Virus record (IMG/VR): IMGVR_UViG_3300021091_000454 | Location: 1-22,638 of that record | Length of the DNA stretch: 22,638 nt | Direction: 5' to 3' (one strand) | DNA from: a virus | Shown here: positions 2,039 through 12,764 of the stretch, piece by piece | Layout of the letters: each line of letters begins with the position of its first letter | Numbering within the stretch: the stretch's first letter is position 1 | The notes under the pieces: model-generated | The model's database searches: none | What the model saw: the letters and a program-made list of their open reading frames with translations, nothing else | Told to the model about the DNA's origin: nothing | Position numbers and translations under genes: made by a program

Positions 2039-2331
2039 TGTTCGCATTAGCCGGACATCTCGGCTGTACGGTCGCCGAGCTAGGTGAGCGGATGAGTGCG
2101 AGCGAGCTGGCCGAGTGGATGGCGCTCATGTCAGTTGATCCATGGGGTCAGGTTCGCGGCGACATCCAGGCGGCGACAGCGGCGTGGGCCGCGACGGCAC
2201 CGTGGGCCAAGGATGTCTCGATGTCGGACTTCCTGCCGCACTACGGCGAGGAGTCCTCGACGAGGGAGATGAGTCCCGAGCAGGCGCGAGCGATTCTGCT
2301 GGCTAGTGGTGCGGAGGTCAGGCGTGGCTAG
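2038..2331 (+). CDS. Tail assembly chaperone, T-like (read mainly as GT fusion)
   Basis: 97 residues if started at ATG 2038, which overlaps the G stop as TGATG. The N-terminus (LAGHLGCTVAELGERMSASE, then LAEWMALMSVDPWG) matches the DUF4035 / gpT-like pattern 'LA..LG.tv.EL...ms..E...W.a.....P.G'. No Shine-Dalgarno is visible before ATG 2038, so expression is more likely by -1 frameshifting at 2005-2011, giving a fusion running from 1667 to 2331; reinitiation at the overlap is the alternative. It overlaps the tape measure start by 8 bases. Confidence 0.75.
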   Translation: MFALAGHLGCTVAELGERMSASELAEWMALMSVDPWGQVRGDIQAATAAWAATAPWAKDVSMSDFLPHYGEESSTREMSPEQARAILLASGAEVRRG

Positions 2332-4333
2332 CATCATCCGCACATCACTGGCCATGGCATGGGACGGCATCGAGGCGATTGCCGGACTCACTAAAATGGC
2401 TGGCAGTCTCCAGAAGACCGGCCAGCATGTTGATGATCTTGCGATCAAGGAAAAGCGCGCCGCAGCCGAACAAGCCGCGTTCAACAAACAGCTTGAGGGT
2501 ATGAACGCTCTAGAGCGAAAGCAGGCCATCCTAGCGCGGGAAACGAAGCAGCGCCGCATGTCGATGAGCGCTGAAGCTATTCAGGCCGACATTCGTGCTA
2601 AGGAGAAAGCAGCTCAAAAGGAAAAAGCGCTCGACGAATTTAGAAACAAGTCGACCTTCCAGAAGTTGGGCAGCATCGCCGCCGGTGCTGCCGACATCCG
2701 TGCCGCCGGCGGCATGGCATTTGGCGTGGCCGGTGGCATCGCCAGCGGAGCGATGCAGTTCGCGCAGCTCGGCGCCGAGCTGGAGTCGATGCAGATCCGC
2801 GCGGCGCACCTCGCCGGCAGTTTTTCCAAAGGCACCAAGGCGATCGAGGACATGCGCCAGGCGTCCATGGCGTCAGGTGTCGCTCTCAAGGAAAACATCG
2901 CCGCCATGTCCGGCCTGGCCAATGCCGGCATCTCAATGGAGGCGGCGACCAAGACCGTGATGCAGGTGCAGGGTGCGGCCGAGCTACTCGGCGAGCAAGG
3001 CGCCGCCACGATTGCCAGCTCCATTGCGGGCATTTTTAAGGCCGGCATTGCCGGCGCTGGCGAGCTCGACGCGCTGCAGTCTCAAGGCATCAGAGTCTAC
3101 GAGTCGCTGGCCAAGGTGCTGGAGCAGACCACTGGCAAGACGCATTCGCTTGAAGAAGCCATGGCGGCGGTGCGGGAAGGTTCCGTAACCAGCGCCGAGG
3201 GAATCCGCGCGGTCATGATTGCGACTAACGACAAGGACATGCAGGACGCGGCGGCAAGGTTTGCCGGTTCGTTTGAAGGCCAGGTGCGGCGGCTCAAGAC
3301 GACCATGGAGGACACCTTCCGCGAAATCTCGAAGATGTTCCTAGACAGCTTTGACATCACCTCGATCGCAGCCGGACTGCGTGGCGCGTTCATAGCGATC
3401 AGGGACATCGTTAAGGAAATCTCAGACACATTCATTCCAGTCATTGATCCGAAGGACAAGGCGCAAGGAATACAAAACACATTCAAAAACATACGGGATA
3501 TTACCTATGACCTGTCTGAGCGTTTTGCCAAACTGGCGCTAGATTTTAAGTTTGCAATTGAGGACGCGGTTGCTTCTTTGGAGCTGATGGCCAAAAAGTT
3601 TGAGATCAGCATGCGCGAGGGTGTTTCCGGACAGATGACAGGTAAGACCAAAAGGTTGCAACGAGAGGCTGAAATCAATCAAGAGTTGATCCGTGGCAGG
3701 CCGGAAGAGATCGCGACGATACGAGCTGGCCAATCGGCCGCAATCACTGAATTTTTCAACAACATCAAAGCTAATGCTGCCGCTCGTGATGCTGCCAATG
3801 CCGCCAATCCCCAACAGAATGTTGCCGACGCATTCAACAAACTAAACAACCAAGTGGGCGAGGCGCAGCTTGCTCTTGAGGCCATGGCTAAGAGCACCAA
3901 TAAGTTTGCCACCGACACGCTTACGCAGATGCGCACGCCGTTTGAATCGTTTAATCATGAATTGCAAAGCATTTCAAAATCGGCAACAGAAGCCAAGATG
4001 GCGTTGATGGGAAGTGCAATCAATCAAAAAGAAATCAACAGGTTTCGCGAGGCGGCCAATCGCAAGACTGGAAAACTTCTTCAAGACCTCATCGCCAACA
4101 ACATCGGCGGCGAGTCGCAGTTCTCGTCTGCATCTGTGCGCGGCAGCGCCGCCGATGTTGAGATGCGGGTGCGCGCGCAGTACGGCGAGGAGACGATGTC
4201 GATCCAAGAGAAGATTCGCATTGCCACCGAGCGCGCGGCGTTCAACAGCGACAAGCAGTTGGCATACTCGGATCAACTGGTCAAGGCATTCGAGAAGGTT
4301 AAGGGGCCGCCGGTGGCGGCAATAGGCAAATAA
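2324..4333 (+). CDS. Tape measure protein
   Basis: 669 residues from GTG 2324, preferred over GTG 2306 because GGAGG (2313-2317) is 6 bases upstream. It sets tail length and is ejected with the DNA. The N-terminal 100 residues are charged and helical (coiled-coil-like, many Lys/Glu/Ala). Residues about 120-330 resemble the tape-measure core domain (TIGR02675-like): AELESMQIRAAHLAGSF, LDALQSQGIRVYESLAKVL and a REGSVTSAEG motif. The rest is long and helical. It is short for the family, predicting a tail near 100 nm. No clear transmembrane bundle; the Gly/Ala-rich stretch at about 115-145 is the most hydrophobic part. Confidence 0.85.
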   Translation: MASIIRTSLAMAWDGIEAIAGLTKMAGSLQKTGQHVDDLAIKEKRAAAEQAAFNKQLEGMNALERKQAILARETKQRRMSMSAEAIQADIRAKEKAAQKEKALDEFRNKSTFQKLGSIAAGAADIRAAGGMAFGVAGGIASGAMQFAQLGAELESMQIRAAHLAGSFSKGTKAIEDMRQASMASGVALKENIAAMSGLANAGISMEAATKTVMQVQGAAELLGEQGAATIASSIAGIFKAGIAGAGELDALQSQGIRVYESLAKVLEQTTGKTHSLEEAMAAVREGSVTSAEGIRAVMIATNDKDMQDAAARFAGSFEGQVRRLKTTMEDTFREISKMFLDSFDITSIAAGLRGAFIAIRDIVKEISDTFIPVIDPKDKAQGIQNTFKNIRDITYDLSERFAKLALDFKFAIEDAVASLELMAKKFEISMREGVSGQMTGKTKRLQREAEINQELIRGRPEEIATIRAGQSAAITEFFNNIKANAAARDAANAANPQQNVADAFNKLNNQVGEAQLALEAMAKSTNKFATDTLTQMRTPFESFNHELQSISKSATEAKMALMGSAINQKEINRFREAANRKTGKLLQDLIANNIGGESQFSSASVRGSAADVEMRVRAQYGEETMSIQEKIRIATERAAFNSDKQLAYSDQLVKAFEKVKGPPVAAIGK

Positions 4334-4334
4334 C

Positions 4335-5273
4335 ATGGCCTACAAGCTATTCAAGGAGTCTGAGGCCGGGCGGCGCGCCAGCATCGACCAACGATACCAG
4401 CGCACCTATGCTCGAGTTTTTATCATTCGCACCGACTCGTCGAGCTATGGTCCCTACTACGCCGGCTCTCACCCATCGCTGCCGGCGATCTGGTCGGCTC
4501 ATCCCGAGGATGCGCTGGCTCGCTGCACATCGCTAGATGTCCAGCAGGACGCTGGCGATGCGCTCCAATGGCGTGTCACGGCAAACTACGCCTACTATGC
4601 GGACCAAACTAGCAATGCCAGCACCGGCGATCCTGCCGTCGACAATCAACAAAAAGGCCAGGATCCGGTTGATCGCGTGCAATCGCCTCTTAGCCGTCCG
4701 CGCGACTACCAGATCTCCACGACCAGCTACAAGATCGCCACGGCAACGGCATGCAACACGAGCACCAATGCGTACACTGTGCCAATCGTCAACTCGGCAG
4801 GTGATCCATTCCTGCCACCACTGGAGACCGAGCGCGGCGCCGCAACGCTCACCGTTGGACTCAACAGCAGCAGCGAACCATCGAGCGCGTGGATCCAATC
4901 GATTGGGTTCGTCAACAGCAGCAGTTACACGATCGGACCTTATGTGATCGCCGCCGGCCTGACCAAGTTGGACAGCGTCTCGGCGCAGCGAGCGTTTGAG
5001 AACAATGTTGCTTATTGGCGTTGGAGCCTTGTGTTTTCGTATCGGCCGCTTGGGTGGGCCGTCGTCGTCATGGATGCTGGCAAGCGCGAAAAAAGCGCCA
5101 TCAGCGGCGAGATGCGAAACATCACCATGAACGGCGTGCCAGTGTCATCGCCTGTGCCGCTCAATGGGAGCGGATTCAAGCTGAGCCGCACGCTGATCGA
5201 GGCCGACCCGGTCGGCGCCTACACCTACCTGACCTTCCATGTGTATCCTCGCGTGGCATTCCCGAGTCTGTAA
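4335..5273 (+). CDS. Tail tip / distal tail structural protein, unrecognised
   Basis: 312 residues directly after the tape measure, the usual place for distal tail or baseplate components. I do not recognise a family. It is rich in Ser, Thr, Ala and Tyr with strand-like stretches (CTSLDVQQDAGDALQWRVTA, WSLVFSYRPLGWAVVVMDAG, YLTFHVYPRVAF) and no membrane segments or cysteine clusters. The 'ALQWRVTANYAYYA' portion alternates hydrophobic residues like the barrels of distal tail proteins. Its stop overlaps the next start as TAATG, so it is probably co-translated with the fibre genes. Confidence 0.55.
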   Translation: MAYKLFKESEAGRRASIDQRYQRTYARVFIIRTDSSSYGPYYAGSHPSLPAIWSAHPEDALARCTSLDVQQDAGDALQWRVTANYAYYADQTSNASTGDPAVDNQQKGQDPVDRVQSPLSRPRDYQISTTSYKIATATACNTSTNAYTVPIVNSAGDPFLPPLETERGAATLTVGLNSSSEPSSAWIQSIGFVNSSSYTIGPYVIAAGLTKLDSVSAQRAFENNVAYWRWSLVFSYRPLGWAVVVMDAGKREKSAISGEMRNITMNGVPVSSPVPLNGSGFKLSRTLIEADPVGAYTYLTFHVYPRVAFPSL

Positions 5274-6034
5274 TGGCTGGATACCTTGTCAGCGACGAAG
5301 ACCTCAAGCGCCTGGCGGCGGTGCTGTCCGACTATGAGCGAGGGTTGCTGAATACCAAGACGCTGCCAGAGGAGTTTGCCGGACAGCTCCCTATCGTGCA
5401 TGTTGTCAGGGTGTCAGGATCTCCGACCAGCGGCACCTATCCCGGCTACCTGCAGGAGTACAACGAGACCACGTCAACCTATACAGATCTTGACAGCATC
5501 TTGATCCGCGAGATCAACGGCGCCGCGCTGAATATCAACACGAAGTACATCGGCCGCTACGCCGGCGATGTGGCCACAGGCAGCGTCTATCTAGTCATTG
5601 CTACCGGCAGCTCATGCGAAACCCTGACGATTGATTTCATCACCTCGCTGTCCTGCGTTGATGGCGTGATTACGCCTGTGTATTCGACCGTTTGCATACC
5701 TTGCGCCTACATCTGCACGACGACCACGACGACAACAACGGCAGCGCCGACAAGCAGCACCACGACCAGCTCAACTTCAAGTACCACGACAGAAGAACCG
5801 ACTACCACCACGACCACGACTACGACAGAAGAACCGACAACGACTACGACAACGACAACGACAACGACGACAACATGCAATCCTGCAGCTTTTGGCTATG
5901 CCACTTGGGTTTGGACAGGTAGTTCCTGGAGCATGACGGGGAATTATTGCGACGAAAGTGCAGTCCCCGTCTCTCCAAATTTTAACGGTACAACGATAGG
6001 GCAAACGACATCAACATGCTGCGCGCCGACCTGA
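5273..6034 (+). CDS. Tail fibre-like protein with Thr-rich stalk and C-terminal Trp/Cys module
   Basis: 253 residues from ATG 5273 (TAATG overlap); a longer upstream extension of the frame is rejected because it lies inside the previous gene. Residues 1-145 form an N-terminal domain of unknown fold, probably the tail-attachment part, ending in a Cys cluster (CIPCAYIC). About 53 residues follow that are nearly all Thr with Ser, Ala and two TTEEPTT insertions. The C-terminus is one copy of a Trp/Cys module (ATWVWTGSSWSM, final TSTCCAPT) that recurs in the next two genes. I infer an adsorption or fibre role from place and architecture. Confidence 0.6.
   Translation: MAGYLVSDEDLKRLAAVLSDYERGLLNTKTLPEEFAGQLPIVHVVRVSGSPTSGTYPGYLQEYNETTSTYTDLDSILIREINGAALNINTKYIGRYAGDVATGSVYLVIATGSSCETLTIDFITSLSCVDGVITPVYSTVCIPCAYICTTTTTTTTAAPTSSTTTSSTSSTTTEEPTTTTTTTTTEEPTTTTTTTTTTTTTCNPAAFGYATWVWTGSSWSMTGNYCDESAVPVSPNFNGTTIGQTTSTCCAPT
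5717..5875 (+). repeat. Thr-coding low-complexity tract 1
   Basis: Continuous ACN-rich codons. It includes a 17-bp direct repeat (ACGACAGAAGAACCGAC at 5786-5802 and 5822-5838, 36 bp apart) and tandem ACAACG hexamers near the end. All units are multiples of three, so copy-number change would alter stalk length without shifting the frame. Confidence 0.9.
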
Positions 6035-6219
6035 TTGCTACCACTCAGCCACCTATTGACTGCCAGTGGCTATGGGATGGCATGCAGTGGGTCCCTTATG
6101 CGCATGAGGCATGCGAGCCGCCGTGCTGGCCGCCGCTGCGAGATGGCGTCTATTTTGGAGACATGACGACGACTGGCAGGACAACCACGCCTCCACCGAG
6201 GAGTCGCGAAAATGCCTGA
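6016..6219 (+). CDS. Small Trp/Cys module protein between the fibre genes
   Basis: 67 residues. It overlaps the previous gene by 19 bases and the next by 8, each in a different frame. The core (CQWLWDGMQWVP, CEPPCWPP, DGVYFGD) is a shortened copy of the same Trp/Cys module found in the flanking proteins, followed by TTTGRTTTPPP, a vestigial Thr stalk. There is no obvious ribosome binding site, so translation probably depends on coupling. It could be a free-standing tip subunit or a piece of a once-longer fibre split by frameshifts; the module match argues that the frame is real. Confidence 0.55.
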   Translation: MLRADLIATTQPPIDCQWLWDGMQWVPYAHEACEPPCWPPLRDGVYFGDMTTTGRTTTPPPRSRENA

Positions 6220-7537
6220 ATACAACCTGTGCGAAACGACATGCGTTTGGATCTGGGACGGTAGTAGCTGGTCAATCCTGTCTAGCGATTGCACGGCGCC
6301 GTGCGAATGCTCGTACATGCCTCCAACGCCGGGTGAATTTATTGGCCAGGAGGTTCTAACTTGGTGCATCGACTCGACGCCGACTAGCACGACGACAACC
6401 GAGGAGCCAGTAAGTAGCACGACCACTACTACCACGACTACCACGACTACCACGACTACCACGACTGCGGCGCCATGCCAAGGAATTTGTCAGTACCAGT
6501 GGTCAAGTGCGCTTAACCAATGGTTTATTGAGTTTTCAGGATGCGTTGGCGAAGGCTGTGGATGTCCTCCACCTCCTGAGACACCGGGGGCAGTCAACGG
6601 CGAGACATGGGCTGACTACTGCATACCCGGTGGCACGACCACGACAACTACGACGACATCGACATCCAGTAGCTCGACCTCGACAAGCTCCAGCTCGACT
6701 ACCACGACATCCACCTCGACAAGCACTACCTCGACCAGCTCCAGTTCGACATCAAGCACTACGACGACCACAACAACCGCCGCGCCATGCACCGGCGGAT
6801 GCACTTGGCGCTGGTCCGCCGCTGGATCCGCATGGCTAAAATACGGTCCAGGCAACTGCTCAGATGGTTGCTCATGCCAAGCGCCAACGACGCCGGGAAC
6901 AGTAGATGGCGAATACCAGACGGTAAACTGTGCACGACTGACATGTCAGGCGTGCTGCGGAAATAATGATTGCTGTCCAATAATTTGCTGCGGCGAAACA
7001 ATTCCTGCAGTCCTTTATGTAACATTTAACATGGCTGGTTTATTTAATTGCATGGACGGAGTGTCCGTGCAAATCAATTTTGTTTCAAGGACCAACACAG
7101 TTCCAACTCTCTACAGTTACGCCAGCACTGGTTCTGTAAATTTTAACGGACTAAAATATCAAAAAGTCACCCCGTGCAACGGCCTGACATACTATCGGCT
7201 CGGTAACTGTTTTGGCGCCGCACAATACGATTGCGACAACGATTTGTATGTCCATGTCGGATTAAACATTGAATGCGGAGAAGGCGGCGGAACTATTTTG
7301 GGCGCTTTTATTTCGTGGATAGTTCAAGGCAAAGACATCTTTACACCATGCACATTTGTTGCGCGACAGGCAAACGGTTATCCAGTAAATTTTTCATGTC
7401 CTGTTTTGCCAATCAATTACACCATAGATTTTCCTAGTTATTTTGACAACTGCGAGTTAAGTGGATCAAATCCTAATGCGGGTATTGTTTATGGAAATCA
7501 AGCCGATGGCGCATTCACGCTGAGCCTGACCGAATGA
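6212..7537 (+). CDS. Modular tail fibre with three Trp/Cys modules and two Thr/Ser stalks
   Basis: 441 residues. Order: module A (about 5-52, CVWIWDGSSWS with CECSYMPPTPGE), stalk of about 30 Thr/Ser, module B (about 90-135, CQYQWSSALNQW, CGCPPPPETPG), stalk of about 48 alternating Thr and Ser, module C (about 193-235, CTWRWSAAGSAWL, CSCQAPTTPG), then a Cys-rich hinge (CQACCGNNDCCPIICC) and a C-terminal domain of about 185 residues of unknown fold. That last domain is encoded by clearly AT-richer DNA (about 6955-7510), suggesting separate acquisition, as is common for receptor-binding tips. The even number of cysteines per module suggests disulphides. A receptor-binding role is inferred. Confidence 0.6.
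   Translation: MPEYNLCETTCVWIWDGSSWSILSSDCTAPCECSYMPPTPGEFIGQEVLTWCIDSTPTSTTTTEEPVSSTTTTTTTTTTTTTTTTAAPCQGICQYQWSSALNQWFIEFSGCVGEGCGCPPPPETPGAVNGETWADYCIPGGTTTTTTTTSTSSSSTSTSSSSTTTTSTSTSTTSTSSSSTSSTTTTTTTAAPCTGGCTWRWSAAGSAWLKYGPGNCSDGCSCQAPTTPGTVDGEYQTVNCARLTCQACCGNNDCCPIICCGETIPAVLYVTFNMAGLFNCMDGVSVQINFVSRTNTVPTLYSYASTGSVNFNGLKYQKVTPCNGLTYYRLGNCFGAAQYDCDNDLYVHVGLNIECGEGGGTILGAFISWIVQGKDIFTPCTFVARQANGYPVNFSCPVLPINYTIDFPSYFDNCELSGSNPNAGIVYGNQADGAFTLSLTE
6377..6466 (+). repeat. Thr-coding tract 2 with 9-bp tandem repeat
   Basis: It contains the 9-bp unit ACTACCACG in four perfect tandem copies (6428-6463) inside a Thr/Ser-coding stretch. The unit is in frame (Thr-Thr-Thr). Confidence 0.9.
6635..6778 (+). 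repeat. Thr/Ser-coding tract 3
   Basis: Alternating ACN and AGC/TCG codons, for example repeats of TCGACNAGCTCC-like units, code for about 48 Thr and Ser residues linking modules B and C of the fibre. Confidence 0.9.
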
Positions 7538-7899
7538 AACCCTGCCGCCACGACCCACCGCATGCAACATGCCGGCTGTGCTGGCTGTACGAACACGACG
7601 CACGCTACCGATCCATGTGGGGTGGTGATCCTGCAACCTTGACGCCAGCGACCGCTCCGGCGCCGGCTCCTTCTCAAATCACCGAGGAACAAAAGGCGCA
7701 GTTAGAGAAGATCAAAACCGTCATCAGGAACCCATGCGTCCACCTAGGCATGGCGCTTGAAGACAAACCTTCCTGTGGCTGCGGCGGCGGCGCTGCGCTG
7801 CTGCGTCAGTGCAGCGTCTACGGGCAGTGCCGGCCGTATGCTCCACGGCAGACTGAAATCCGCCAATGCGTTGGATGCGACAGTTACGAGGCTAAATGA
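7534..7899 (+). CDS. Cys-rich small protein paired with the glycosyltransferase
   Basis: 121 residues in ATGA overlap with both neighbours. The N-terminus has CRHDPPHATCRLCWLYEHD, a compact Cys/His cluster. After a Pro/Ala linker and a short helix, the C-terminus has CVHLGMALE, CGCGGG, CSVYGQC and CVGCDSYE, a probable zinc-binding domain. I recall similar 'C.HLG......C..C.G......C..hg.C.......C..C..Y' segments fused to, or next to, family 2 glycosyltransferases in planctomycete proteins, which fits this position. A partner or adaptor of the downstream enzyme is an inference. Confidence 0.55.
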   Translation: MKPCRHDPPHATCRLCWLYEHDARYRSMWGGDPATLTPATAPAPAPSQITEEQKAQLEKIKTVIRNPCVHLGMALEDKPSCGCGGGAALLRQCSVYGQCRPYAPRQTEIRQCVGCDSYEAK

Positions 7900-8762
7900 A
7901 ATTAACCATCGGCATGGCCAACTACGGCGACGCTCAGGGTGCATGGTGGACCCTCTCGTCGTTGCGGCTGCATCATGTGCCGCTGTCAGACACCGAGGTC
8001 GAGCTACTGGTCATCGACGACATGCCGACGGCCAACCAGGATCTTGCTATTGCGTGCGGTCACGCCAAGGCTCGCTACATCCACGCATCAAAGAACCAAG
8101 GTCCGGCGCACGCCAAGAACAGCGTGTGGGAGCATGCACGCGGTGAGCATGTTCTCCTGCTCGACTCTCATGTCCTGCTGTCTCCTGGCCATGTCGACAC
8201 GATCAAGCGACTCATTGACTCGGTCTGCATCGGCAGTGACATGTGGGTCGGTCCATTGGTCAACGAGTCCGGCGTCACCATCGCCACCGAGCTGCTGCCA
8301 GAGCTACGCGGCGGCATGCTCGGAGTTTGGCACACACGCCATCAGGCGCCGCCGTGGTTTGAGGTGGAAGCTCACGGTACTGCATACATGCTCATGCGAC
8401 GGGATGCGTGGCCTAAGTTCTCTGCTGACTTCCAAGGATTTAGTGGCGAGGAGGTCTACATCCACGAGAAGGTGCGCCGCGCCGGCGGCAAGGTGCTGTG
8501 CCACTCGGATCTGCGATGGTGCCACAGGTTCATGAGGTTTGGCGTGCCGGTCCAATACTGCCTGACACTCAACGACAAATACCGGAATCATCTGGTCGCC
8601 GCCTACGAGATGGGGTGGAGCGTTAAGCAGATGCGCGACTACTTCCGGCGCCGACTACCGCTGGACCAGTGCATCGTGGTGGAGGTCGATGTCGAGATGA
8701 TGCACCCCGATCTATGGCACCGTGACGACACGCAGGCTAGGCAGTTTCGGACTCACGACTAG
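7896..8762 (+). CDS. GT-A fold glycosyltransferase with DSH motif (GT2/GT27-like)
   Basis: 288 residues. The N-terminal half is a nucleotide-sugar binding GT-A domain: start KLTIGMANY, VELLVIDD (D41-D42), NQGPAHAKN, then HVLLLDSH (D90-S91-H92) as the metal-binding DxD-equivalent. The second half has GTAYMLMRRDAW and GFSGEEVYIHEKVRRAGG (catalytic acid region, E185-E186) followed by RWCHRF (about 207-212). DxH instead of DxD and the 'GEE...R....GG.......HRF' layout are typical of polypeptide GalNAc-transferases (GT27), although general GT2 enzymes are also possible. It sits directly behind Thr/Ser-rich fibre genes, suggesting fibre glycosylation. ATGA overlap with the Cys-rich gene. Confidence 0.8.
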   Translation: MKLTIGMANYGDAQGAWWTLSSLRLHHVPLSDTEVELLVIDDMPTANQDLAIACGHAKARYIHASKNQGPAHAKNSVWEHARGEHVLLLDSHVLLSPGHVDTIKRLIDSVCIGSDMWVGPLVNESGVTIATELLPELRGGMLGVWHTRHQAPPWFEVEAHGTAYMLMRRDAWPKFSADFQGFSGEEVYIHEKVRRAGGKVLCHSDLRWCHRFMRFGVPVQYCLTLNDKYRNHLVAAYEMGWSVKQMRDYFRRRLPLDQCIVVEVDVEMMHPDLWHRDDTQARQFRTHD

Positions 8763-8786: not shown

Positions 8787-9038
8787 ATGCCGATGGATCC
8801 GATCCAGTTCATTCGAGAGCTTGGACTTCCAACAGCTATATGCTGCGCCATTGCTTACGGCAGTTATCACCTGGCGGCTTGGCTTGGCACACAGGTCGTC
8901 ATCCCGCTGCGGGACAGGCACTTTGCGTTCTTGGCATCCCTTGAGTCGACCCTGGACGCCATCGCTCAGACGCAGGCTCAAATCGCCAAGGAAATTGAGC
9001 GGGTAAGCACAGTCTGTAAAGGGAAGGAGAGCACATGA
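8787..9038 (+). CDS. Small membrane protein, holin candidate
   Basis: 83 residues from ATG 8787 behind a strong GAGGAGG (8777-8783). One hydrophobic helix (about 13-40, LGLPTAICCAIAYGSYHLAA) is followed by an amphipathic, coiled-coil-prone tail (LESTLDAIAQTQAQIAKEIE). Length and layout resemble small single-span phage membrane proteins, sometimes holins or spanin-like. It starts a new translation cluster after a 24-base gap and overlaps the next gene by ATGA. Holin function is inferred from topology and neighbours only. Confidence 0.5.
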   Translation: MPMDPIQFIRELGLPTAICCAIAYGSYHLAAWLGTQVVIPLRDRHFAFLASLESTLDAIAQTQAQIAKEIERVSTVCKGKEST

Positions 9039-9679
9039 TCGTTGCGGCGCTGCTGCTACTGGCCGGCCAAAAGATCGAGGTGCCTGCCGAGGTGCGAGGT
9101 GAGCCGGGTGCGTTTATTGCCATCACGCCAAAAACCGACGGAAAGCGCGTCAAATACTATTCGCTAGATGCCGGCCTCAATTCATTCCCTGCCGGACTCT
9201 TGTCCGATCCGACAGCCACGGTCGTCACGGCTCCATTGCCAGGACGCTACCGCCTGCTGGCATACACCGCACTCGGTGACATGCCATCCGACCCGGTGAT
9301 CATCACGGTTGTCGTTGGCGAAACGCAGCCGCCAAGGCCAAAAGAGCCGACTGCCTACGAGCGTTCGCTGCTGGCTATCTGGGGTGCCATCCAAGAGCCT
9401 GACAGGGAATCATCCCGCGTCGCCGTGGCGCAGCTCTACCGTCAGTGCGCTGTCGAGGCACGCAAGCAATACGACACGGCAGGCGCGCTTTACGACGCGC
9501 TGCTCAAGCTCTCGGCCGGCGTGCCTCGCACCAAGCTGGCGACGCTGCGTGAGCGCGTGGGTGCCGAGATCGCCACGGTAGTTCCTGATGATCCAGCCGC
9601 CGTCATCACGCCGGCTCAACGCCAGCAGGTCGCTGACATCTACGCCACGACGGCGGCTCTCTTGGAGTCGGTGAAGTGA
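9035..9679 (+). CDS. Exported Ig-like protein with helical C-terminus
   Basis: 214 residues. The N-terminus is a very short hydrophobic segment (MIVAALLLLAGQ) that could be a minimal signal peptide. A beta-rich domain of about 90 residues follows (KIEVPAEVRGEPGAFIAITP, PGRYRLLAYTALGDMPSD, VIITVVVGE), looking like an Ig-type fold, then a Pro-rich linker and about 110 helical residues (YERSLLAIWGAI, AVAQLYRQCAVEA, QVADIYATTAAL). I do not know the function. Between a membrane protein and a cysteine protease it may belong to a lysis or envelope-interaction cassette. Confidence 0.5.
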   Translation: MIVAALLLLAGQKIEVPAEVRGEPGAFIAITPKTDGKRVKYYSLDAGLNSFPAGLLSDPTATVVTAPLPGRYRLLAYTALGDMPSDPVIITVVVGETQPPRPKEPTAYERSLLAIWGAIQEPDRESSRVAVAQLYRQCAVEARKQYDTAGALYDALLKLSAGVPRTKLATLRERVGAEIATVVPDDPAAVITPAQRQQVADIYATTAALLESVK

Positions 9680-10566
9680 GCGAAATCTACACCGGATGGG
9701 TCAAGGACGACGAGGCGGTTGACCAGCTCCTTCAAGAGCTGCCGTATCCTGTCGCCGGCGACACTCCGGCCGGACAGCATGATCATCCGCTTCCGGATCA
9801 TGTACACCTTTGGCATTTCGCGCGACATGTCACAGGCGACTTGTTGCCGCCGGCGACACAAGGCGAGGTCGGATCGTGTGTCGCATTTGGCACGGCTCGC
9901 GCTATTGAGTACAGCATGTGCGCCGAGATCGCCAACGGCGACAAGGAAGAGTTCCGCAAGTTGGCCGAGGAGTGCATCTACGGCGGCGCTCGCGTCGAGG
10001 TGGCCGGAGGTCGCCTCCGTGGAGACGGTGCGGTCGGCGCGTGGGCCGCAAAGTGGGTCAGCGTGACTGGCGGCCTCATCCCGCGAGGCAAGTATGGCTC
10101 AATCGATTTGACCGCCTACAGCGTCGCCAGGTGCCAGAGATATGGAGCGTCGGGTGTTCCTGACGAGCTCGAGCCGGAAAGCCGCAAGCATCAGGTCATG
10201 GCGACTCAGGTGCGGAGCTGGATCGAGGCCAAGCGCATGCTGGCCAGCGGATATGGGATCAGTGTCTGCAGCAGCCAAGGCTTCAAGATGGCCCGCGATA
10301 AAAACGGCGTCAGCCAGCCATCTGGCTCATGGGCGCACTGCATGTGCCTGTGCGGGTACAGCACGATAGATGGCGCGGAGTACGGCCGCATCGACAACTC
10401 GTGGGGAGCGTCGACGCACACGGGTCCGACAGGTCCGGGTGATCCCGGTCCCGAGGGGTTTTACGCATCGAGCAGTGTCATCGACAAGATGCTGCGACAG
10501 AACGATAGCTGGGCGTTTTCAGCGATTGCCGGATTCCCGGTGCGCCGCCTGAGCTGGACAATATGA
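9676..10566 (+). CDS. Papain-like (C1 family) cysteine peptidase
   Basis: 296 residues starting at GTG 9676, which overlaps the previous stop (GTGA). All catalytic elements of the papain family are visible: oxyanion Gln in TQGEVGSCVAFGTA (Q62, nucleophile C68), histidine in GSWAHCMCLCGY (H221) and asparagine in GRIDNSWG (N241). Spacing fits a minimal C1A domain. No signal peptide or propeptide is apparent. C1 peptidases are unusual as phage enzymes; here the protein could help lysis, entry or virion processing. Placement after a membrane protein and an exported protein favours lysis, but that is inference. Confidence 0.75.
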   Translation: MSEIYTGWVKDDEAVDQLLQELPYPVAGDTPAGQHDHPLPDHVHLWHFARHVTGDLLPPATQGEVGSCVAFGTARAIEYSMCAEIANGDKEEFRKLAEECIYGGARVEVAGGRLRGDGAVGAWAAKWVSVTGGLIPRGKYGSIDLTAYSVARCQRYGASGVPDELEPESRKHQVMATQVRSWIEAKRMLASGYGISVCSSQGFKMARDKNGVSQPSGSWAHCMCLCGYSTIDGAEYGRIDNSWGASTHTGPTGPGDPGPEGFYASSSVIDKMLRQNDSWAFSAIAGFPVRRLSWTI

Positions 10567-11262: not shown

Positions 11263-12393
11263 TCATCCCCATTTTTCGACCACGGCCTCGACGCGCCTTC
11301 TTGGCACGGCGGCATATCGGCCTGTAATGGAGGTGGAGCCGGTGGAAATCGAGTCATCGTCGCCACGGCCGTGATGGCCGAGGATGGCACCGATGATCGA
11401 CTCGGGAACCATGCGGCCAACCAAAAAAGTGGCAGAAGTGTGCCGAACCTGTTGCGGGTTGTACGGCGGAAGTCCAAGCCGTTTGGTCGCTCGCGTGAAT
11501 GCCAGTCTGTAGGCGTCACTATCCCGAGGCTTGCTCATGGCCTGACAATTTACTCTTACATTCATTTTTCTAGCTGGAAAAAGGTAGCCACTTTTCAGTA
11601 GCAGTGGCGCCAGCAGTTTGCGAGCGCGAGGACCGACAAGGATAGTCAGCGCATGACCTCGCCAAGTGTTTTTGTGTACCCGAGGTGTGTACCGCCAAGG
11701 CTTAATAGATTGATCGATTTCGTCTGTCTGGACGCGAAGCGCCGTTTCCGTGCGCTGGCCAGTCAAAAGTTGCCAAGCCAAAACGGTTTTCCAAGGTTCC
11801 TTGAGCTGACGAAGGATCATGAACAGATGTTTTCTTGGTATTGGCTGCACTTTCTTTGACGGCCGGGTTTCTCCCTGGCGAAGCGCTGGCAGCGTGCGCA
11901 TGCGCAAATACTGCGCCTCATCCATAAGGTCTAAGCCAGCGCCCCACTTGAACATCTGCAACACAATACGCATGTATTCACGGATTGTTTTGCGCGCAAG
12001 GCCTCGCAGGATCAGGGTTTGCCGTATGGCAACAAGGTCCGCTTTGCCTACCTCATGCAGCGGACGGACGGCCAGCTCGGCCATGTGCTCTCGCATGACC
12101 GACCTAACTACCCCTAGCGTCTCGGTTTCGACACCATCGACGGTTCTGTAAACCCTTTGGCAGTCAGCATAAAAAAGAGCCATGAGTCCAGCCACCTGAG
12201 CCGGCCTCGCCACTGCCGCAGCGCTGACGCCGACATCCTGCGCATACCTGCGCACCCAAGCGTTGTAGCGCTCGACGCTTTGAATTGTGTTGGCGCGTCC
12301 AAAGTAATGCCGGGTTCCGGTTCTCGGGTCTCGCACATACGCCAGACCCTTGGCCTTGTGATGGCACAGCTTTGGTACTTTTTTGTGTACCAT
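11263..12393 (-). CDS. int: Tyrosine recombinase, phage integrase
   Basis: 376 residues from ATG 12393. The frame extends further upstream but would run through the tRNA fragment, so that extension is rejected. The N-terminus (KLCHHKAKGLAYVRD, GTRHYFG) looks like an arm-binding domain, with a core-binding helical domain at about 65-160. The catalytic domain has LLTGQRTETALR (R214), K241 in a beta-hairpin, QQVRHTSATF (R317, H318; the usual first His of HxxR is Gln), LGHHG (H340/H341) and ITGRYAAV (nucleophile Y360). It catalyses attP x attB recombination. Arm-type repeats overlap its start codon, implying self-regulation. Confidence 0.92.
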   Translation of the reverse strand: MVHKKVPKLCHHKAKGLAYVRDPRTGTRHYFGRANTIQSVERYNAWVRRYAQDVGVSAAAVARPAQVAGLMALFYADCQRVYRTVDGVETETLGVVRSVMREHMAELAVRPLHEVGKADLVAIRQTLILRGLARKTIREYMRIVLQMFKWGAGLDLMDEAQYLRMRTLPALRQGETRPSKKVQPIPRKHLFMILRQLKEPWKTVLAWQLLTGQRTETALRVQTDEIDQSIKPWRYTPRVHKNTWRGHALTILVGPRARKLLAPLLLKSGYLFPARKMNVRVNCQAMSKPRDSDAYRLAFTRATKRLGLPPYNPQQVRHTSATFLVGRMVPESIIGAILGHHGRGDDDSISTGSTSITGRYAAVPRRRVEAVVEKWG

Positions 12394-12610
12394 TTGCGTT
12401 TTTTGTGTACCGGCTTTTTGTCGTAAGTCGAGTCGGGGCGACAGGATTCGAACCTGCGACCTCTTGGTCCCGAACCAATCTAAAATGAATAGATAAGTCG
12501 TTGTCTTACAAGACTTTGCGTCAATAAGCCTAGAAAATTTTGTGTACGCAAAACCCGCAAAAACCCCGCGTTTTTGTGTGCTGCGTTTTGGAATTGTGTA
12601 CCTTGTGTAC
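12381..12610 (+). repeat. Arm-type integrase binding repeats (TTTTGTGTAC) flanking attP
   Basis: Direct copies of TTTTGTGTACC: 12381-12391, 12401-12411 on one side of the core; 12538-12547, 12572-12581 (TTTTGTGTGC), 12592-12602 (AATTGTGTACC) and 12601-12610 (CCTTGTGTAC) on the other. Several starts are 20 bp apart, about two helical turns. The first copy overlaps the int start codon. A further copy at 11670-11680 lies inside int and is probably coincidental. Confidence 0.75.
12433..12479 (-). other. attP: attP core: 3' half of tRNA-Pro (CGG)
   Basis: Read on the - strand this is the anticodon loop (TTGG-TTCGGGA-CCAA, anticodon CGG), variable region, T arm (GCAGG-TTCGAAT-CCTGT) and acceptor 3' strand CGCCCCG plus A of a bacterial tRNA-Pro. 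The 5' half is absent: identity stops at the anticodon stem and AT-rich DNA follows. This is the classic attP design in which integration rebuilds the host tRNA. The anticodon-stem inverted repeat (12464-12478) is the likely crossover region. It is not itself a functional tRNA. Confidence 0.85.
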
Positions 12611-12639
12611 TTGCCGGACAAGTCCTGTGGCTGTAATTT
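12611..12639 (+). promoter_or_regulatory. Putative promoter for the excisionase-like gene
   Basis: TTGCCG (12611-12616), a 17-base spacer, and TAATTT (12634-12639) on the + strand form a sigma-70-like promoter directly after the last arm repeat. Sequence inference only. Confidence 0.4.
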
Positions 12640-12660
12640 TTTCAATACTGCGACTTGTCC
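12616..12660. promoter_or_regulatory. Putative operator pair GGACAAGTC / GACTTGTCC
   Basis: GGACAAGTCC (12616-12625, itself a dyad) lies in the promoter spacer, and its 9-bp inverted counterpart GACTTGTCC (12652-12660) lies after the -10 element. Such a pair over a promoter is typical of repressor or excisionase sites; the RHH protein at 12957-13193 is a candidate binder. Confidence 0.4.
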
Positions 12661-12690
12661 AATTTTAATGAACAGTCGTACAGTAACAGA

Positions 12691-12764
12691 AGTAAGGACA
12701 TCCCTTACTCCGGCGCCTGGATGTCGCCGCAATGAGCGCAGAGGTGCGCACCCCATTGATGGGG
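12691..12764 (+). promoter_or_regulatory. Leader hairpins before the excisionase-like gene
   Basis: Three perfect stems lie in the presumed 5' leader: AGTAAGG-ACATC-CCTTACT (12691-12709), GCGCA-GAGG-TGCGC (12736-12749) and CCCCAT-TG-ATGGGG (12751-12764). The last contains the G-rich ribosome binding site of GTG 12773 and is followed by GTTTGTTTGT, so it could block translation or cause attenuation. Confidence 0.45.

Follow-up and report, generated by a model that had tools for sequence, protein, structure and literature searches.

A DxH glycosyltransferase with a predicted GalNAc-transferase-like fold, encoded directly behind Thr/Ser-rich stalk genes in a phage, as the probable O-glycosylating enzyme of the stalks

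In Gram-positive bacteria, the Ser/Thr-rich stalks of serine-rich repeat adhesins are O-glycosylated in the cytosol by GtfA and GtfB, enzymes of the GT-B fold. In mycobacteriophages, the subunits of the capsid and of the tail tube carry glycans at their C-termini, according to an excerpt of PMC12619734 on the work of Freeman et al. (2023). The polypeptide N-acetylgalactosaminyltransferases (GalNAc-transferases), family GT27, are described as never found in bacteria in an excerpt of PMC6994419, and their metal ligands are given as a DxH motif plus one further His in an excerpt of PMC9996832. Here, a glycosyltransferase (GT) gene was analysed in the virus record IMGVR_UViG_3300021091_000454, whose 22,638 bases are called the window in what follows; the loci compared with it are denoted by L-numbers. 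The gene, at 7896-8762, likely encodes a soluble cytosolic GT-A enzyme of a prokaryotic GalNAc-transferase-like family, which would glycosylate the Thr/Ser tracts (stalks) of the two proteins encoded upstream before these are assembled.

The genes, stalks and motifs on which this proposal is built are the following.

5273-6034, +, stalk protein 1, an open reading frame (ORF) of 253 residues
5717-5875, +, Thr/Ser stalk 1, within stalk protein 1; 53 residues, 44 of them Ser or Thr
6212-7537, +, stalk protein 2, 441 residues with 33 Cys; two stalks flanked by small Trp/Cys-rich domains
6374-6466, +, Thr/Ser stalk 2, within stalk protein 2; 31 residues, 26 of them Ser or Thr, counted from the translation
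6635-6778, +, Thr/Ser stalk 3, within stalk protein 2; 48 residues, all 48 Ser or Thr
7534-7899, +, Cys-rich protein, an ORF of 121 residues with 10 Cys
7896-8762, +, predicted GalNAc-transferase-like DxH GT, 288 residues, catalytic domain only
8163-8171, +, DSH putative metal motif, Asp90-Ser-His92; Asp and His invariant in 83 of 83 domains
8445-8453, +, GEE motif, residues 184-186; Glu185 aligns with Glu334 of human GalNAc-T2
8523-8525, +, His210, candidate third metal ligand by profile alignment with His359 of GalNAc-T2

Overlaps of the form ATGA couple stalk protein 2 to the Cys-rich protein (7534-7537) and the latter to the GT (7896-7899). These coordinates agree with a first-pass annotation made from the sequence alone, which had placed the Cys-rich and GT genes directly behind the fibre genes by such overlaps.

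The AlphaFold2 model of the window GT had a predicted local distance difference test (pLDDT) score of 93.7, and its fold began at residue 3. When this model was compared with solved structures by Foldseek, ranks 1 to 41 were all polypeptide GalNAc-transferases (E 6.6e-14). By VIA, the best match was again a GalNAc-transferase (Z 22.8, 260 residues aligned, root-mean-square deviation 3.3), and the first 29 rows were all GalNAc-transferases with Z values down to 18.6, followed by a chondroitin polymerase at 17.9. The GT of L109, which belongs to clade 2 of the family and is only 32% identical to that of the window, gave a similar result: its model (pLDDT 90.9) returned GalNAc-transferases in 50 of 50 cases among the Foldseek matches listed, and Z values from 24.2 down to 20.3 over 29 GalNAc-transferase rows by VIA, with the best other fold at 18.9. 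The two models support a GalNAc-transferase-like GT-A fold in an enzyme that is not GT27 by sequence. The likeness to GalNAc-transferases suggested by the first-pass annotation, for which a comparison of GT27 and GT2 folds had been named as a check, is thus borne out in two distant members of the family.

The DSH (residues 90-92), GEE (184-186) and RWCHRF (207-212) motifs were all found at the positions given in that annotation. A profile alignment with GalNAc-T2 placed DSH on DSH and brought the GEE/His block into register, with the same spacing of 25 from Glu to His in both proteins (E185-H210 in the phage GT, E334-H359 in GalNAc-T2). Among distinct domains of at least 235 residues, phage and bacterial, D90, H92, F182, E185, E186, W208, H210 and F212 were invariant in 83 of 83. 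The GT gave no Pfam match to a lectin domain, and the alignment to the catalytic domain takes up all of its 288 residues. It scored 39.2 bits against Pfam PF00535 (Glycos_transf_2), for which the gathering cut-off is 23.3, and had no match in PHROGs at E 1 or better.

A single-sequence query revealed relatives of the GT at 37 loci of IMG/VR, and an alignment query yielded 124 stretches, of which the best 80 of 124 were used, giving 79 loci. Relatives were also present on 2 genome contigs. Two queries of 50,697 GenBank phage records returned no relative at E 1e-5. The one close relative with a name was A0A6J7WYC1, an uncultured phage protein with a predicted structure, 55% identical. In L004, a large phage, the DxH enzyme is directly followed downstream by a second GT-like gene (6877-7599), which possibly extends the glycan.

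The three stalks offer 118 potential acceptor hydroxyls. In seven other window genes, Ser and Thr make up 14.8% of the residues; at that frequency, the naive probability of 48 out of 48 is about 1e-40. Tandem repeats do occur in the stalk DNA, but it draws on each of the four Thr codons and on both blocks of Ser codons, so that the repeated unit is the amino acids and not one DNA unit. The first-pass annotation had counted three stalk-bearing genes. The stalks themselves are real, with 53, 31 and 48 residues, but the genes that bear them are two: the middle ORF (6016-6219) only holds a short TTTGRTTT, and stalks 2 and 3 share 6212-7537.

The pairing of enzyme and stalk was then followed across relatives. 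The 126 GT loci fell into 33 clusters at 90% identity, 24 of which were counted, two of them from bacterial genomes; 5 clusters without upstream DNA were left out, as were L165, L166, L233 and L235, found in a scan for poly-Thr only. A strict stalk, defined as at least 20 Ser or Thr in 25 residues on the same strand, was present 0.3-3.2 kb upstream in 16 of the 24, compared to none of 120 viral loci around a random 14-mer (1.06 Mb, both strands), which gives a Fisher p of about 1e-15 when kinship between the clusters is ignored. Therefore, the pairing for which the first-pass annotation had advised a search does recur in other phages. In the GT tree, stalks accompanied all nine members of the window clade, and in the other deep clade 11 had a stalk, 8 did not and 4 were cut (rows derived from the scan included). 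When the Ser/Thr runs were masked, 19 carrier sequences separated into several groups without detectable similarity to each other.

Poly-Thr stalks are also found apart from the enzyme. At least 120 such loci were detected in IMG/VR (L119-L238), and the GT was present in 5 of the 120 among the matches listed; L191 holds a GT fragment at its edge. Loci with another phage GT2 enzyme were too few to serve as a control (7 found, 5 examined, none with stalks), and the contig of one of them, L361, holds both the DxH GT and a stalk outside the piece examined. Among 89 ORFs near poly-Thr stalks lacking the DxH GT, a few matches to GT4, GT2, Gly_transf_sug and Caps_synth were seen, and 90 ORFs of random viral loci, selected out of 239, gave none among the matches listed (25 of 31 families). 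That stalks without the DxH enzyme carry other GTs is suggestive only.

The Cys-rich gene provided a second marker of the block. Relatives of its product were found at 30 loci, and in 26 of these (8 clusters at 90%) the GT followed within 62 bases downstream; 23 of the 26 had a stalk and 3 had less than 1 kb of upstream DNA. Among the remaining loci, L380 and L396 are cut by the ends of their contigs. L397 and L399 have kept the Cys-rich gene and have 4 kb of downstream DNA with neither GT nor stalk. Over the whole of their records, which measure 40.8 and 34.3 kb and may be incomplete, no GT match was found in a search without a positive control of its own, and no run of seven Thr in a scan in which the L003 record was positive. 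L397 retains the Cys-rich, 83-residue and peptidase genes at 35, 39 and 52% identity. It was considered as a simple deletion of the stalks and rejected, given that its fibre and the gene upstream are not clear homologues of those of the window. As the tail-tip block of L397 differs as a whole, we speak of joint absence rather than of loss.

In L041, L044 and L075 (two GT clusters), a counterpart of residues 33-120 of the Cys-rich protein lies directly before the GT (43% identity, E 3e-17 in L041) and follows the last Trp/Cys-rich domain of the stalk protein in one open frame. The rest of the L041 protein is a relative of stalk protein 2 of the window (E 4e-17). A fusion of the whole Cys-rich protein was discarded, its N-terminal part being missing, and a separate start is possible at these loci because in-frame Met codons precede the counterpart.

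Stalk proteins of clade 2 end instead in a short tag of the type CxxxCNKLG[FY], or more generally C-x(n)-C-N-x-L-x-[FY], with the GT domain mostly following after 18-20 bases; examples are KCEPDCNKLGY and KCIDNTCNKLGF. It was seen in L091-L116, L165, L235 and L400-L435, and in some phages (L037, L093, L098, L109) on two or more successive stalk genes. A regular expression applied to the C-termini of 28,153 ORFs retrieved 22 distinct ends, of which 19 lie at loci of the GT family; the 3 others are outside such loci and have no stalks. Of those 19, 17 had Ser or Thr at 14 or more of 20 residues, the second L037 gene had 12 and L115 had 7. A scan of IMG/VR for CNK[LF]G[FY] followed by a stop gave 39 matches, many on contigs that are close relatives of, or identical to, earlier ones. 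Nineteen of them end ORFs of at least 80 residues, all rich in Ser and Thr (16-24 of 25); 17 of these have the GT (the distance is +18 to +20 bases in 15 of them, and +333 and +4539 in the other two) and 2 have none within 2.9-4.2 kb. The other 20 matches are at the ends of ORFs of 6-75 residues with neither stalk nor GT. The tag may serve as a recognition or anchoring element.

The GT domain is also encoded in bacteria, where at E 1e-20 it was detected in 2 of 396 genomes of the phylum of a Bryobacterales locus and in 4 of 369 of the class of a UBA7415 locus. Nine bacterial loci from six genomes were compared (L446-L452, L117, L118). Seven of them have a Thr-rich protein nearby, by a test of at least 14 Thr in 40 residues that 9 of 120 random loci also pass in a control that was viral, not bacterial; the N-termini of Thr-rich proteins at these loci are signal-like, for instance at 3223-3585 of L446 and 5237-6010 of L448. 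The contig that carries L448 and L449 is 1.38 Mb long, so both loci are chromosomal. A Pfam scan of nine proteins, a part of the neighbours, placed PqqD above its cut-off in five loci (L446, L447, L449, L450, L451) and below it in L117, either adjoining or within the enzyme or in the Thr-rich protein; a GT25 domain lies within the same polypeptide in L446, L447 and L449. These loci look like a protein-glycosylation system or one akin to those for ribosomally synthesised and post-translationally modified peptides. The combination of PqqD, GT25 and Thr-rich neighbours therefore makes a peptide-guided, chain-building bacterial O-glycosylation a concrete hypothesis.

From its GalNAc-transferase-like shape, its metal site and its recurrent pairing, the enzyme probably puts sugars on the stalks. 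The computed basis of this proposal is the fold, the invariant metal site, the recurrent pairing with unrelated Thr-rich carriers, the joint absence and the gene overlap, from which we infer that transfer takes place, that the stalks accept the sugar, and when and where this happens. The GT would modify freshly synthesised stalk proteins in the cytosol, before virion assembly; a cytosolic site is suggested because an anchor could not be accommodated ahead of a fold that begins at residue 3. The sugar, a HexNAc or a hexose, would come from a nucleotide-sugar, probably UDP-HexNAc, and be transferred to many Thr/Ser hydroxyls. On the tail, tracts modified in this way would form extended rods with small Trp/Cys-rich domains on either side, and the glycan coat could provide stiffness, protease resistance or a decoy. 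A wider reading, which we put forward more tentatively and would not yet call likely, is a prokaryotic counterpart of mucin-type O-glycosylation, in which one phage and bacterial family of DxH GT-A enzymes, a structural neighbour of animal GT27, would coat unrelated Thr-rich carriers under the direction of a recognition element. In phages this would be the C-terminal Cys tag or a Cys-rich domain; in bacteria it would be PqqD, a peptide-binding domain, with GT25 domains of the same polypeptide extending the glycan.

Several observations weigh against stalk glycosylation by this enzyme. By sequence, the family matches only GT2: Glycos_transf_2 was detected in 35 of 35 members (E <= 0.01), the nearest solved sequence was 6h1j (E 6.6e-8, over the N-terminal half), which we take to be TarP, no GT27 chain appeared among the sequence matches at E <= 1, and hhalign against a single GalNAc-T2 segment gave a probability of 1.5%. 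By the profile alignment, the position of Trp331, a key catalytic residue of GalNAc-T2, is occupied by Phe182, and this Phe is found in 83 of 83 domains. In the pairing, common ancestry makes the clusters less independent than the p value implies, and a looser cut of 16 Ser or Thr in 25 is passed by 11 of the 120 random loci too. Eight clusters have no strict stalk. No Thr-rich neighbour was found in 5 of the 24 (L038, L081, L084, L089, L090), and 3 have weaker ones only: a short Thr tail just before the GT in L078, 15 of 25 in L095, and Thr-rich proteins on the opposite strand in L118. Conversely, the GT was present in only 4 of the 47 poly-Thr loci with at least 1.5 kb downstream, among the matches listed (L165 is not one of the 47, its stalk having failed the filter of that count); therefore, the enzyme predicts the stalks and not the reverse. 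The joint absence, finally, relies on two records, each possibly a fragment, with a GT search that had no positive control of its own.

The sequence relationship is what favours an enzyme that modifies a surface polymer of the host (teichoic acid, lipopolysaccharide or capsule), for example to block superinfection, the stalks not being its substrate. Prophage GTs that modify such polymers are known, and the closest solved relatives by sequence are wall and capsule GT2 enzymes (6h1j, chondroitin synthase, TarS). This explanation is nonetheless unlikely, as the nearest folds in two separate models are those of protein O-glycosyltransferases, the GT gene is coupled to the tail stalk block by ATGA, both deep clades and the bacterial genomes show the pairing with Thr-rich proteins, and enzyme and stalks are jointly absent in two relatives. 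The first-pass annotation had named a place in a lipid- or wall-sugar GT2 clade as the outcome that would tell against its proposal; here the structure says otherwise, whereas the sequence profile does give GT2.

We judge slightly less probable still that the enzyme glycosylates the Trp/Cys-rich domains or the Cys-rich protein, with the stalks as plain linkers. In its favour, the window-clade loci examined have the Cys-rich gene or domain immediately ahead of the GT, and at L041, L044 and L075 it shares an open frame with the stalk protein. Against it, the Cys-rich protein persists in L397 and L399, where the GT is missing, and in clade 2 and the bacteria the GT is accompanied by Thr-rich tracts that belong to unrelated proteins. 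Hitchhiking, in which unmodified low-complexity stalks and an unrelated enzyme would share a tail module by descent, could account for the abundance of poly-Thr stalks in IMG/VR, mostly without the enzyme among the matches listed, and for the tandem repeats in the stalk DNA. It appears the least probable by some way, given that the carriers fall into several dissimilar groups while the GT tree is deep, that all four Thr codons are used, and that GT and stalks are absent together.

A neck-type gene (match to phrog_5) is followed by an ORF of 675 residues, a tail gene of 312 residues and five overlapping ORFs. The features around those listed above are the following.

2306-4333, +, tape-measure-like protein of 675 residues, likely from its position and length; no convincing match in Pfam or PHROGs
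4335-5273, +, tail protein of 312 residues, 5' of the stalk genes; kept across the window clade
6016-6219, +, ORF of 67 residues with a single small Trp/Cys-rich domain and no long stalk
8787-9038, +, small protein of 83 residues, the next gene in the row; its relative in L397 is 39% identical
9676-10566, +, papain-like peptidase of the tail module (Pfam PF00112), a synteny marker; 52% identical in L397

ORFs resembling the 312-residue protein precede the stalk genes in L002, L003, L006, L008 and others, and the 67-residue ORF has counterparts in L002 and L003. The stalk proteins had no convincing family match in Pfam or PHROGs, and the name fibres given to them derives solely from their place behind the tape-measure-like gene. 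The small Trp/Cys-rich domain, of about 45 residues (C..C.W.W...W...C...C.C..P..PG), is repeated between the stalks in 6212-7537 and occurs also in 6016-6219; it is possibly a carbohydrate-binding module. A phage integrase (PF00589) is encoded at 11263-12756 on the minus strand. Beside it, at about 12430-12480, spurious translations recall the pattern of a tRNA 3' end, which we take as a possible attachment site; ARAGORN detected no full tRNA in the window. No regulatory element clearly beyond shuffled controls and no match to an RNA family were found in the window.

The first-pass annotation knew of no described system of glycosylated Thr-rich phage stalks built in this way, and no description of the pairing was found in the full-text literature searched, a body outside which lie most subscription papers and all preprints. 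By sequence the enzyme falls outside GT27, yet it probably works like a GT27 enzyme. If so, a phage and bacterial family sharing this fold and metal site and linked to Thr-rich proteins would change the view of where GalNAc-transferase-type chemistry comes from, and would account for some of the poly-Thr stalks seen in phages from the environment. Small lectin-free enzymes could become available for making dense O-glycoproteins in Escherichia coli, and phage tails are predicted to bear a glycan coat, with possible effects on adsorption and on resistance to proteases.

Compared to GT27, represented by human GalNAc-T2, the phage enzyme shares the catalytic fold across its whole length, the DxH motif with a third His, the Glu-His spacing and, in its neighbourhood, a Thr/Ser-rich protein as likely acceptor; it differs in that it has no significant sequence match, lacks both a lectin domain and space for a membrane anchor, and carries Phe in place of Trp331. 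With the GT2 enzymes of wall and capsule (6h1j, TarS in 5tze and the chondroitin polymerase K4CP) it shares Glycos_transf_2 and a sequence match over the N-terminal half, whereas in structure these score Z 17.9 and below, and the context of the phage GT is one of tail stalk genes. TarP, TarS and K4CP carry DxD where the phage GT has DxH. Mycobacteriophage glycosylation, by its description, likewise concerns virion proteins of phages, the candidate acceptor here being a long Thr/Ser stalk. The GtfA/GtfB system resembles the present one in linking an enzyme to a Ser/Thr-rich stalk, but the phage GT is GT-A, according to the model matches listed, and not GT-B.

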